DNA of 64,000 nucleotides, from positions 62,001 to 126,000 of IMG/VR virus record IMGVR_UViG_3300020463_000008; one strand, given 5' to 3'. Shown here one piece after another: positions 549 to 23,700 of this stretch (position 1 is its first letter; each line of letters starts with the position of its first letter). Under the pieces are notes generated by a model. It was not told the origin of the DNA and searched no databases. It saw nothing but the letters and a program-made list of their open reading frames with translations. Position numbers and translations under genes: made by a program. This stretch comes from a virus.

Positions 549-3032
549 TTAAAAGAAATCCTCCAAACTCGCTGTTTCTTTGACCTTCCAGCGAAGCGAT
601 TGTACCAATATCTCTAGTGGATCGAGGAATACTTTCTCGAACATAAGGTCATAATCAGCATATTTATGTATATCAAACTCCTTAGGAATAACATCTAGAA
701 AGGATATAACATTCTCCCTCATGGTATTTGGTTTCTTAAGATATACAAACTTAATCTTTTCACCCTCTTTTATCGTGTTATATCTGAGAGTAATATTCTT
801 TTCTTTTAGATAATGATTATATAATAAAGCACCTCTAACATGAATAGGAGTTGCCTTGCGATATATCATTGAAGAATCTTTATATTGTTTCAAACCATTT
901 ACAGATCTAGGAAAAGCAATATCTTCAACAGGAAGTCCATTGAAATGCGTTCTAGCTTTTTCAATAAAGGCATATAAATCAGATTGAGTTCCACGAAGAA
1001 CAGTTGGTAATACCTCTTTCAATAATTCACGAACAGCATGTGGTGTAGAAGATTTAATCATCTCTAGACCCATAATCTTCATCTTAGGTTTTTTATAAGA
1101 TACACCCTCAGAATTATATACTGAAAGAACATATCTTTTCTTGGCAGTCCATAAACCTTTATCAGCTAGAACTTCCCTTTCCATTACCATCTTGTTGGCA
1201 AAGGCATTCTGTCTTGTAGCAAGTTCAGCATATTGTTCATTTATATATGGCATAAATTTTTCATTACATATTGTGTCTAGGAACTTAATAGTTTTATTTA
1301 TGTCAGATTGTTTTTCTCCCATAACTTTATCTACAAGTTTTTCGAATGTCACATATATAGAATCTGTATCAACAGCTATAATATAATCTTCATCTTTCGT
1401 ACCTATTATCTTATTAAGATAATCATTCATTCTATCGTGAATCCAACGAATAGATAATTGACCAGAAGTAGTAATAGCTTCAGCCATCTTTAAATCAAAA
1501 TATCTAAAGTACTGGTTGCCGAGTGCACCATAAGCAGAGTTAAGAGCAATCTTCATTCCCATCTGATAATTGTTTTTACTTGAGATAACTTTTAATTGTC
1601 TAGGATCGTTTTCATCTTCATATAATTGTCGTGCTTGAAGCATTTCTTTTTTAGCAATCTTTCTTTGATTATAGAAGTCTTCCATAATAGATGGGAATAC
1701 ACCTCTAAAGTCTTTTCTATATTGAGAACCATTTGCAGCAACAGCATAATCAGATTCTTGAGCAGGATGTTTAAGATAATGGTCAACACCTTTCTCAACT
1801 GATTCTTGTTGTAGTGTTTCAGGGGAGATATTATATTGCATAATTAAATGCGGATATAGTGAGTTCAAGTCAAAGGAAGCGACCCATTTATGTAAACCAA
1901 CTATCGGATCTTTTACGAATGCTCCTTCAAATTTGGCAGATTTATCTTGGTTTGACTTTGGTGGTATTACGACATTTACTTTCATCAGATAATTGTGAAC
2001 AATCATATCCCACATACGAACCTGAGAAAATACATCATCATAATTAATCTTAGCATTATATGCCATAGTTAGTTGAAGTTCAATCAGCTTCATCTTATCT
2101 TCTAGTCTGTCAACCAATCTGGTATCAACGACATTATAATCAACAAATTTATTCCAATCGTTTTTATAAAACTCTGAGAATGTTGCGTACTCACTATGGT
2201 CAAGTTTCTTTTCACCAAGTTCAACGAATGCTATGTTATCTAAACGATAAGATTCCTGAGCAGTATATGTATATTTCTTATAGAGGTCAAGATAGTCAAG
2301 TTGAGCAATACCTGCGATTGCTATGGCGAACTCTTTATTACCTTTTACAAATATCTCTCGTTCATGTACAATCTTCCAAGGGGATAATCTACGAGCATGG
2401 TCTTCACCAATTACATGACACATTCTTCGCCATAAATATGCGAGGTCAAAAAACTGAGAGTTCCATCCAGTAATAACATCTGGATAATTTAATATCCAAT
2501 AGTCTAGGAATTTATTAAAGAGAATCTTTTCATCTCTACAATATACATATCGCCAATTATTATGTTGCTGTGCATCACCTGTATATTCTTTAGTTCCGAA
2601 AGTGACAGTTTCTTTGGTATGGTTATCTTGTAAAGTAATTAAAAGAAGTTTCTCGTTGGCTCTTTCAATATTAGGGAATCCTTCTTCAGCTTCAGTTTCA
2701 ATATCAATAGACCAAATCTTAATAAGATCTTTATCCCATTCAATATCATTTTTAAACTCGTCATGCATATATTGATAATGCCATTGAGTCTGACCATGAA
2801 CATCCATGACTTCTTGGTATTGTTGAACAAAAGATTTTGCATCTCTTATATTAGCTTGTTGGATTTTATAGGCAGGTTGCCCTTTGAGAGTTTTGTATGG
2901 TGTTTCGCCTTTACCTCTCGTCACCCATACACTGGGTTTGAAAGGTATTTTTTCTGCTCGTCTTTTACCACCAGAAACATATCTGACTAGTAATTGATTG
3001 CCATGTGGGTGAACATTTGTATAAAACTTCAT
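549..3032 (-). CDS. 43: DNA polymerase, family B (T4 gp43-like)
   Basis: This is the replicative polymerase with 3'-5' exonuclease. The 827 aa compare with 898 in T4. Exo I is at 108-113 (D110, E112), Exo II at 191-196 (NSQFFD), Exo III at 299-303 (YNVVD), motif A DLNSLYP at 388-394, motif B around KIALNSAYG (494-502) and motif C DTDS at 555-558. All catalytic residues are present and there is no intein. The first 40 residues align by eye with the T4 gp43 N-terminus, which supports the start. There is no clear Shine-Dalgarno, and the early promoter -10 ends 8 nt before the ATG, so expression may be leaderless. Its partners (clamp, loader, RegA) lie just upstream. Confidence 0.97.
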   Translation of the reverse strand: MKFYTNVHPHGNQLLVRYVSGGKRRAEKIPFKPSVWVTRGKGETPYKTLKGQPAYKIQQANIRDAKSFVQQYQEVMDVHGQTQWHYQYMHDEFKNDIEWDKDLIKIWSIDIETEAEEGFPNIERANEKLLLITLQDNHTKETVTFGTKEYTGDAQQHNNWRYVYCRDEKILFNKFLDYWILNYPDVITGWNSQFFDLAYLWRRMCHVIGEDHARRLSPWKIVHEREIFVKGNKEFAIAIAGIAQLDYLDLYKKYTYTAQESYRLDNIAFVELGEKKLDHSEYATFSEFYKNDWNKFVDYNVVDTRLVDRLEDKMKLIELQLTMAYNAKINYDDVFSQVRMWDMIVHNYLMKVNVVIPPKSNQDKSAKFEGAFVKDPIVGLHKWVASFDLNSLYPHLIMQYNISPETLQQESVEKGVDHYLKHPAQESDYAVAANGSQYRKDFRGVFPSIMEDFYNQRKIAKKEMLQARQLYEDENDPRQLKVISSKNNYQMGMKIALNSAYGALGNQYFRYFDLKMAEAITTSGQLSIRWIHDRMNDYLNKIIGTKDEDYIIAVDTDSIYVTFEKLVDKVMGEKQSDINKTIKFLDTICNEKFMPYINEQYAELATRQNAFANKMVMEREVLADKGLWTAKKRYVLSVYNSEGVSYKKPKMKIMGLEMIKSSTPHAVRELLKEVLPTVLRGTQSDLYAFIEKARTHFNGLPVEDIAFPRSVNGLKQYKDSSMIYRKATPIHVRGALLYNHYLKEKNITLRYNTIKEGEKIKFVYLKKPNTMRENVISFLDVIPKEFDIHKYADYDLMFEKVFLDPLEILVQSLRWKVKETASLEDFF

Positions 3033-23204: not shown

Positions 23205-23252
23205 TAAAAAAGCTGGGAGGTTATAAGTTTATAAGTCTTACACCACCCAGCT
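23205..23252 (-). terminator. Intrinsic terminator of the YRG unit
   Basis: On the minus strand AGCTGGGTGGT pairs with ACCTCCCAGCT (11 bp, one mismatch), followed directly by TTTTTTATTTG. It lies 13 bp below the YRG stop. The loop of about 20 nt is long. The descending arm shares ACCTCCCAGC with the riboswitch leader. Confidence 0.75.
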
Positions 23253-23264
23253 CCTCTAATAAGA

Positions 23265-23426
23265 TTAGTGCTTTATGCCACGATACGATAAATCGCTTTT
23301 GACAGTTGCACTTTCCTTTTCGATAGTACCATGCTTGACACCTCTGTAAATACCAGCATTAGACTTCTTAGTCTCTTTGCTAACATTCTCGTCAGTGACT
23401 TTGATACCTCTGTAGAAAGTAGTCAT
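23265..23426 (-). CDS. 53-aa YRG-repeat protein (DUF4278-like)
   Basis: The ORF has a strong GGAGGA site before ATG 23424-23426. It contains three copies of a short motif: FYRGIKV at 4-10, IYRGVKH at 26-32 and SYRGIKH at 47-53. YRG small proteins are known in cyanobacteria and their phages, and short peptides of this kind are found behind glutamine-sensing leaders. The leader upstream carries the conserved blocks of that riboswitch. The role of the peptide is unknown; a link to nitrogen status of the infected cell is the natural inference. Confidence 0.8.
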   Translation of the reverse strand: MTTFYRGIKVTDENVSKETKKSNAGIYRGVKHGTIEKESATVKSDLSYRGIKH

Positions 23427-23479
23427 CGTTTCCTCCAGTTTTCATTGGTTAATATTAAGTCATATTAAAATGACAGCCA

Positions 23480-23617
23480 ATGCGTTCCTTCAGTTGGATT
23501 GTCGGTCTCGTTCCCTTTCGATCGTGTCTAATTGGTACTAGCTTGCCCCATTGCTGGGAGGTTTTCCTTTTCCTACTTACTTCCGTCCACTGCTACATTT
23601 AGAGTGAATGAACGATG
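23480..23617 (-). promoter_or_regulatory. Glutamine riboswitch-like leader (Downstream-peptide/glnA type)
   Basis: On the minus strand the leader has ATCGTTCA at its 5' side (from 23616), GGACGGAAGTA in the middle and TGAAGGAACGC at the 3' side (to about 23482). CGTTC pairs with GAACG (P1), CACT with AGTG (P2), and AGTaGG with CCaACT (P3). These are the invariant blocks of the glutamine riboswitch as I remember it. P3 carries an insertion of about 70 nt. The next bases CATTGG pair with CCAATG just above the ribosome site, a possible expression platform. Confidence 0.8.
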
Positions 23618-23636
23618 TTAGTAAAACTAACACTAT

Positions 23637-23666
23637 TATTTAGCCTGAAAAAAACTTAAAAGTAAA
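23637..23666 (-). promoter_or_regulatory. Early-type promoter of the riboswitch unit, overlapping a late box
   Basis: On the minus strand, -35 TTTACT (23661-23666), a 17-nt spacer and CTAAAT (23638-23643). The same bases give CTAAATA (23637-23643), the late-type box, so the riboswitch transcript may be made both early and late. Confidence 0.55.
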
Positions 23667-23671
23667 GCACA

Positions 23672-23700
23672 AAAAAAAGGGGAGCCGAAGCTCCCCTTTT
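23672..23700 (-). terminator. Strong intrinsic terminator after gene 23
   Basis: On the minus strand AAAAGGGGAGC, loop TTCG, GCTCCCCTTTT, then more T residues. The 11-bp stem is closed by a stable C(UUCG)G tetraloop. It lies 26 bp below the gene 23 stop and ends the structural unit. Confidence 0.95.

Follow-up and report, generated by a model that had tools for sequence, protein, structure and literature searches.

A type-1 glutamine riboswitch with a conserved domain nested in its P3 arm precedes a YRG-peptide gene in a T4-like marine phage and in SAR86 bacteria

The window analyzed here, a 64,000-nucleotide stretch of phage DNA (positions 62,001–126,000 of IMG/VR record IMGVR_UViG_3300020463_000008), contains a block of T4-like genes for a portal, a protease, a scaffold protein and the major capsid protein gp23, followed by a small riboswitch-peptide unit on the minus strand and then by a tail-tube-like protein, an open reading frame (ORF) of UvsY size and a helicase. 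This is the order met in T4-like, Kyanoviridae-like marine phages (gp20-gp21-gp22-gp23 ... tail tube/gp3-like, UvsY, UvsW), UvsY and UvsW being named from their position and size relative to relatives and from homologues. The unit, which is the subject of this work, associates a glutamine riboswitch, an RNA domain nested within the P3 arm of its aptamer and a gene for a 53-residue peptide with YRG repeats.

All the leader blocks named in an original prediction made from this DNA are present on the minus strand, namely ATCGTTCA (23616–23609), GGACGGAAGTA (23588–23578), TGAAGGAACGC (23492–23482), the CATTGG/CCAATG hairpin, the GGAGG ribosome site, the ATG and the 53-residue ORF reaching 23265. 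Likewise, the proposal that this T4-like phage has a glutamine aptamer ahead of a short peptide is borne out by covariance search: with the curated Rfam cut-offs, cmscan detects RF01739, the type-1 (glnA) glutamine riboswitch, at 23479–23616 (minus strand) with 44.8 bits against a gathering threshold of 35 (E 1.5e-6 over the whole window), and a relative (L265) scores 45.5 bits. The prediction had spoken of a Downstream-peptide/glnA type and suggested searching with both models; the glnA assignment stands, whereas RF01704 (Downstream-peptide, type 2) leaves the 1401 bases searched without a match, even with the threshold relaxed to E ≤ 10. P1 pairs 23614–23610 with 23487–23483, P2 occupies 23608–23586, and the loop-E strands AGTA and GAA lie at 23581–23578 and 23491–23489. 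Just upstream, a small 5' hairpin, GTTAGT-TTT-ACTAAC (23617–23631, minus strand), sits at the expected transcript start. The identity of the RNA as a type-1 glutamine riboswitch is near certain, and glutamine sensing is predicted because of its membership of RF01739 and the published biochemistry of the class (PMC6316151). Glutamine riboswitches of both types activate expression when glutamine is present, and in cyanobacteria they mainly control DUF4278 genes (PMC6316151). When the whole phage record was searched with RF01739, the window's own copy was overlooked, presumably owing to its long insert, and absence by that route therefore weighs little.

This insert, overlooked in the original prediction, amounts to 79 bases left unmodelled within P3 in the RF01739 alignment of the window leader. 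The extended P3 (23492–23577, minus strand) pairs 23577–23567 with 23501–23492 and encloses a nested core (23502–23566) delimited by covariation and by segmentation of relatives. The 5' half of the core consists of GAAAACC (23566–23560), hairpin 1 (23559–23546) and CAAGC-T-AGTA (23545–23536), and the 3' half of hairpin 2 (23535–23514), GAAC (23513–23510) and GAGACCGA (23509–23502). A pattern scan of a viral collection for glutamine aptamers with a long P3, which made no use of the core sequence, returned at least 20 loci whose inserts carry GAAAACC, AGC-N-AGUA, GAAC and GAGACCGA in fixed order, while the two hairpins vary freely in sequence and length. Scans by the nested core and of bacterial genomes enlarged the set to at least 126 units (at least 83 distinct RNAs), distributed over SAR86 chromosomes and contigs of marine phages, the pattern-scan counts for viral and genome collections being lower bounds.

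A covariance model of the nested domain, R1 (92 positions, 17 pairs), matches the window at 23483–23585 (68.6 bits, E 5.5e-15) and cleanly separates nested loci (68.6–100 bits) from plain glutamine-aptamer loci (at most 28.5 bits), the gap being empty. Over 72 distinct rows, in an alignment that was fitted to the model and is thus biased towards structure, 89.4% of pair cells are standard versus 68.8 after shuffling, two-sided changes affect 15 of the 17 pairs, compensatory cells number 241 versus 70 (standard deviation 12) after shuffling, and the covariation score is 0.530 versus 0.185 for shuffled alignments and 0.05–0.15 for slid structures. A separate RNAalifold run on the MAFFT alignment also retrieves the two nested hairpins, 6 of the 11 pairs being compensatory. 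Furthermore, an extra A in front of AGUA and one behind GAAC are either both present or both missing (18 with, 65 without, zero exceptions), a coupled one-nucleotide insertion that flanks the second hairpin on both sides. Throughout all fetched sequence the strict nested core lies within a glutamine P3 (140 of 140 occurrences) and never outside, and no Rfam family matches the domain in the window leader or in a relative. As judged by this comparative evidence, the nested domain is a conserved, strongly covarying RNA element that is not in Rfam.

Hairpin 2 accommodates a conserved sub-insert, GGGTCAATAAATCCA or a close version of it, in L218, L220, L221, L223, L230, L251, L271 and L309, which TTGGGTTAATTTATCTTAGG in the SAR86 copy L394 resembles. 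The string CCTCCCAGC occurs on the minus strand both in a nested hairpin of the window (23561–23553) and, at 23220–23212, in the 3' arm of the probable terminator of the peptide transcript; the corresponding nested hairpin of the close relative L072 lacks it, and the repeat is probably due to chance. Another group of phages (L001, L004–L008, L022, L035, L043, L099 and others) shows a 60–63-nucleotide arrangement in the P3 region, GCCGACGCGGAACG..CGTTCAT..ACGCCGAC, which looks like two interleaved or degenerate glutamine aptamers and lies upstream of DUF4278 genes (MSKVVYRGVEYDTQKR).

Directly 3' of P1, in the expression-platform region, the P4 hairpin pairs CATTGG (23482–23477) with CCAATG (23448–23443) around an inner GTCAT/ATGAC stem on the minus strand. 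In most units P4 starts one base past P1, just 5' of the conserved GAAAACUGGAGG, and it covaries, with compensatory versions such as CATAGG/CCTATG, CGTT/AACG, CTA/TAG and CTT/AAG in relatives. The Shine-Dalgarno sequence GGAGG (23432–23436, minus strand) belongs to a conserved block, GAAAACTGGAGG, and is complementary to CCTCC of the nested domain (23561–23557). A conserved UGAGAAGGGUGUA-hairpin-UAUGUACGAAAUCGA element is found inside P4, between P1 and the ribosome site, in L002, L236, L239, L264, L318 and most nested units; it has no Rfam match above threshold and is absent from the window, whose P4 is a simple hairpin.

The gene placed under this leader (23265–23426, minus strand, ATG at 23426) encodes a basic YRG-repeat peptide (PF14105; phrog_5049/545) that is not an orphan, since DUF4278 spans residues 1–52 with 28.3 bits against a PF14105 cut-off of 25.3; among four relatives tested, two lie above this cut-off and two below. 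The peptides of the family measure 35–57 residues and are basic, with a mean net charge of +7 and two or three YRG motifs (three in 69 of 90 distinct peptides), and substitutions in their genes are concentrated at third codon positions among relatives (3410, 2436 and 5993 at positions one to three). Among the units listed, every readable ORF downstream of a nested domain encodes a YRG peptide (120 of 120), whereas plain single glutamine aptamers in phage contigs precede one in only 6 of 51 distinct ORFs and mostly precede other small ORFs; hence the nested domain marks one regulon. These counts use a 25-residue threshold; at 20 residues, some SAR86 leaders gave spurious ORF starts at ATGs farther upstream. 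The plain aptamers of marine phages (L121–L214) stand before several unrelated families of 28–65-residue ORFs, for example MNRFDHLHKTYRE..., MTKYQIARFKRAVKRD... and MTLWSEYCRRRA..., and in two SAR86-order genomes DUF4278 genes lie behind tandem plain glutamine aptamers rather than the nested form (L460 and L462, around 1720–1800, minus strand). With the peptide as query, tblastn gave a weak P-SSM7 match only and a PDB sequence search gave no match; the AlphaFold model (predicted template modelling score 0.23) was too weak to be used. The IF7-like inhibitory half of the inactivating factor IF17 was not found in the window peptide, whose 53 residues are taken up by DUF4278, and for this reason the peptide is not filed as a glutamine synthetase (GS) inactivating factor.

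Among the matches listed in bacterial genomes, all true ones belong to SAR86 chromosomes, two of which are titled only Gammaproteobacteria. This distribution rests also on model searches: R1 detects the unit, always as a single copy, in 42 of 199 SAR86-order genomes and, with stricter filters, in 2 of 369 genomes from across the Gammaproteobacteria (G003 and G023, both also on the SAR86-order list) and in none of 386 cyanobacterial genomes, the latter search having no positive control within the group. A distant blastn search with a SAR86 unit returned only a chance match of 27 nucleotides. The SAR86 nitrogen route combines AmtB with the GS-glutamate synthase (GS-GOGAT) pathway (PMC11582366). 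The unit is no more than 4 kb from amtB in 15 of 20 SAR86 loci, and glnK adjoins amtB where the locus is long enough. GlnE was found in none of the 20 genomes nor in any of the 199 SAR86-order genomes, the Escherichia coli control being positive, and most of the GS sequences are short and GSII-like; among G001–G020, a copy of GSI size is present in G005 and G009. The T-loop of SAR86 P-II (GlnK, L401:4156–4509) reads YRGASY, which the YRG[IV]x[YHV] repeats of the peptides resemble, so that mimicry may be considered.

One SAR86 copy, L404, located on a 317-kb contig with SAR86 suhB, glnK and amtB, is a SAR86/phage chimera. Its promoter region and P2 are SAR86-like (0.87 and 0.97, versus 0.66 and 0.69 for phage), while its nested domain and coding sequence are phage-like (0.89 and 0.90, versus 0.79 and 0.63 for SAR86). 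At the level of sequence this is direct evidence of exchange between SAR86 and phage and the best host evidence obtained here. Because of this chimera, SAR86 is likely the host of these phages, rather than a cyanobacterium. The cyanobacterial context assumed in the original prediction has become unlikely, since the bacterial copies reside in SAR86, the 386 cyanobacterial genomes yielded none, and the nearest named phage by gp23 is Melnitz.

The gp23 of the window (PF07068, 475.7 bits) shares 66% identity with that of the OM43 phage Melnitz, followed by cyanophages (62–64%) and pelagiphage HTVC008M at about 63%. The unit lies 73–116 nucleotides 3' of gp23 in many phages, whose gp23 identity to that of the window goes down to about 60%, and in the gp23 tree the nested-unit phages occupy several branches, one of them comprising 19 rows and no isolate. 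It is absent after gp23 in eight named relatives, and a distant blastn search with the window unit gave no match among named phages. T4-like gp23 contigs about 68% identical to the window gp23 are present in the SAR86 assemblies G080 (L469), G090 (L468) and G123 (L470), either as contamination or from infected cells; they were dropped as proof of the host, as none carries the unit.

The transcription signals differ between phage and bacterial copies. An intrinsic terminator ends the upstream gp23 transcript (23675–23700, minus strand; an 11-pair stem followed by a T run, flagged by scan). Instead of the early-type promoter first proposed, no sigma-70-type promoter was found upstream of the unit on the minus strand, where the T4-late-promoter-like element CTAAATAAT occupies 23643–23635 (TATAAATA in relatives). 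TATAAATA lies upstream in 33 of 59 distinct phage regions (1.6% when shuffled) versus 0 of 19 SAR86 copies, and TATAAT in 9 of 19 SAR86 copies versus 2 of 59 phage regions, which suggests that the phages have placed the device under a late-type promoter. As to the terminator predicted for the peptide transcript, AGCTGGG..CCCAGCT-TTTTTT at about 23205–23252 (minus strand) is plausible by eye and probable, but it has a long loop and was not flagged by the scan.

Altogether, we consider it rather probable that the unit is a translational type-1 glutamine ON-switch which, with its nested P3 domain, controls the YRG peptide in T4-like phages most likely infecting SAR86. The leader would be transcribed from the late phage promoter. 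Without glutamine, P1 and P3 would remain unformed and the ribosome site could be masked (in the window leader, through pairing with the nested-domain CCUCC); upon binding, P1, P3 and the nested domain would fold, P4 would stack beside P1 and translation would begin. In the predicted free ensemble, the window Shine-Dalgarno sequence is unpaired with a value of 0.08, reflecting GGAGG/CCUCC pairing, and of 0.85 when P1 is forced. Ligand binding brings about a large change in P3 of the type-1 aptamer (PMC5393176). Since it is this mobile arm that bears the nested domain, the folding or occupancy of the domain should feed into the switch, which the domain may tune or gate. From the kinship with DUF4278, the glutamine control and the place beside amtB and glnK, we infer a restraining effect of the peptide on nitrogen assimilation: it would act as a brake on AmtB, P-II or GS late in infection, and the bacterial copy would be the same brake under replete nitrogen. 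The roles given here to the peptide and to the nested domain are deduced ones.

Several observations weigh against this scheme. Free-energy folding of the leader as a single sequence is no better than that of shuffled sequences (z −0.15 and 0.45), and the evidence for the RNA is therefore the covariance model together with the comparative data. Across 86 leaders the Shine-Dalgarno sequence is unpaired on average at 0.37 free versus 0.46 with P1 forced, so that masking is not family-wide, and a general sequestration by the nested CCUC is not supported by these values. The gp23-bearing contigs of SAR86 assemblies are devoid of the unit, and SAR86 is a probable host. Furthermore, the DUF4278 part of IF17, which is all that the YRG peptides match, is dispensable for GS inhibition (PMC6316151), and cyanobacterial inactivating factors act on GSI, but SAR86 GS is mostly the short, GSII-like enzyme.

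What the nested domain does within this switch may be read in several ways. The strongest open reading, which we hold tentatively, is that it is a second, independent aptamer, for example for a carbon/nitrogen signal, so that the leader would be a nested switch with two inputs, the P3 of one aptamer being stabilized by the other. An invariant unpaired core with freely variable hairpins, the three-way-junction layout, an AGUA/GAA strand pair placed as in the glutamine aptamer, the lack of an Rfam family, a regulon that is always the same and the position on the moving arm all speak for it; usual independent aptamers, on the other hand, do stand alone, which the nested domain never does, and such sequence conservation is also seen in purely structural modules. 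By extension, and with due reserve, the P3 insert could represent a new class of riboswitch aptamer confined to the interior of another aptamer, in which case nitrogen-uptake control in SAR86 and its phages would use two interlocked sensors. The confinement of the domain to glutamine P3 and its AGUA/GAA motif, loop-E-like and as such a common structural module, could equally denote a module of tertiary structure that makes P3 more rigid and increases the affinity or cooperativity of glutamine binding with no ligand of its own, a reading that is possible though short of probable. The tandem plain aptamers before some SAR86-order DUF4278 genes (L460/L462) would then suggest an alternative route to a sharper response. 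Yet a long invariant core seems costly for mere stiffening, because known glutamine type-1 aptamers function although their P3 is short (as in the RF01739 consensus) and because related phages contain many plain aptamers, and the exclusive association with YRG peptides is left unexplained.

This association, absolute on the side of the domain, together with the net charge of about +7 and the two or three YRG repeats, would be accounted for if the domain bound a protein, such as the basic peptide itself in a feedback control; we regard this as unlikely, as some plain or tandem glutamine aptamers, devoid of the domain, are likewise followed by DUF4278/YRG peptides. Finally, glutamine riboswitches are known in cyanophages and the gp23 relatives include cyanophages at 62–64%, which would be compatible with an ordinary cyanophage riboswitch bearing a random P3 insert. 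The conservation and covariation of the insert contradict this, as do the 386 cyanobacterial genomes that gave no copy, the eight related isolates without the unit after gp23 and the SAR86 chimera, making it highly improbable.

SAR86 bacteria are among the most abundant bacteria of the surface ocean, and to our knowledge no SAR86 phage has been isolated. The glutamine riboswitch with its YRG peptide beside amtB and glnK is a concrete candidate for nitrogen control in SAR86, and T4-like phages hold the same device behind a late-type promoter. Thus, a class formerly thought to be cyanobacterial is found in another host lineage and in its probable phages, whose copies of the unit offer a means of recognizing putative SAR86 phages from genomic sequence.

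A 2018 review restricted the type-1 class to cyanobacteria, whereas it is found here in SAR86 and in T4-like phages that are probably not cyanophages. As in the RF01739 class at large, P1, P2 and the joining strands ACGGAAGUA and GAAGGAACG are conserved and a DUF4278 gene lies downstream as in cyanobacteria; the difference resides in P3, where a conserved nested domain with two hairpins takes up about 65–80 nucleotides. The type-2 riboswitch (RF01704) likewise drives short DUF4278 peptides in marine microbes, but the window does not match its model. The gifB/IF17 system of Synechocystis shares the combination of a type-1 glutamine riboswitch, a DUF4278 protein and nitrogen control; here the DUF4278 part stands alone, in two or three YRG repeats, and most SAR86 genomes have another type of GS. 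A glutamine riboswitch is also present in Melnitz, a related T4-like marine phage (an OM43 methylophage), where it was published as linked to ssrA, the gene for transfer-messenger RNA, and where neither unit nor nested domain follows gp23. Lastly, tandem glutamine riboswitches (157 doublets, PMC9481103) likewise present two folded modules per leader; the second module of the window leader matches no known aptamer in Rfam, and while the modules of tandem riboswitches are arranged in series (PMC9481103, the text of which does not contain the word nested), here the second module lies within the P3 arm of the first.
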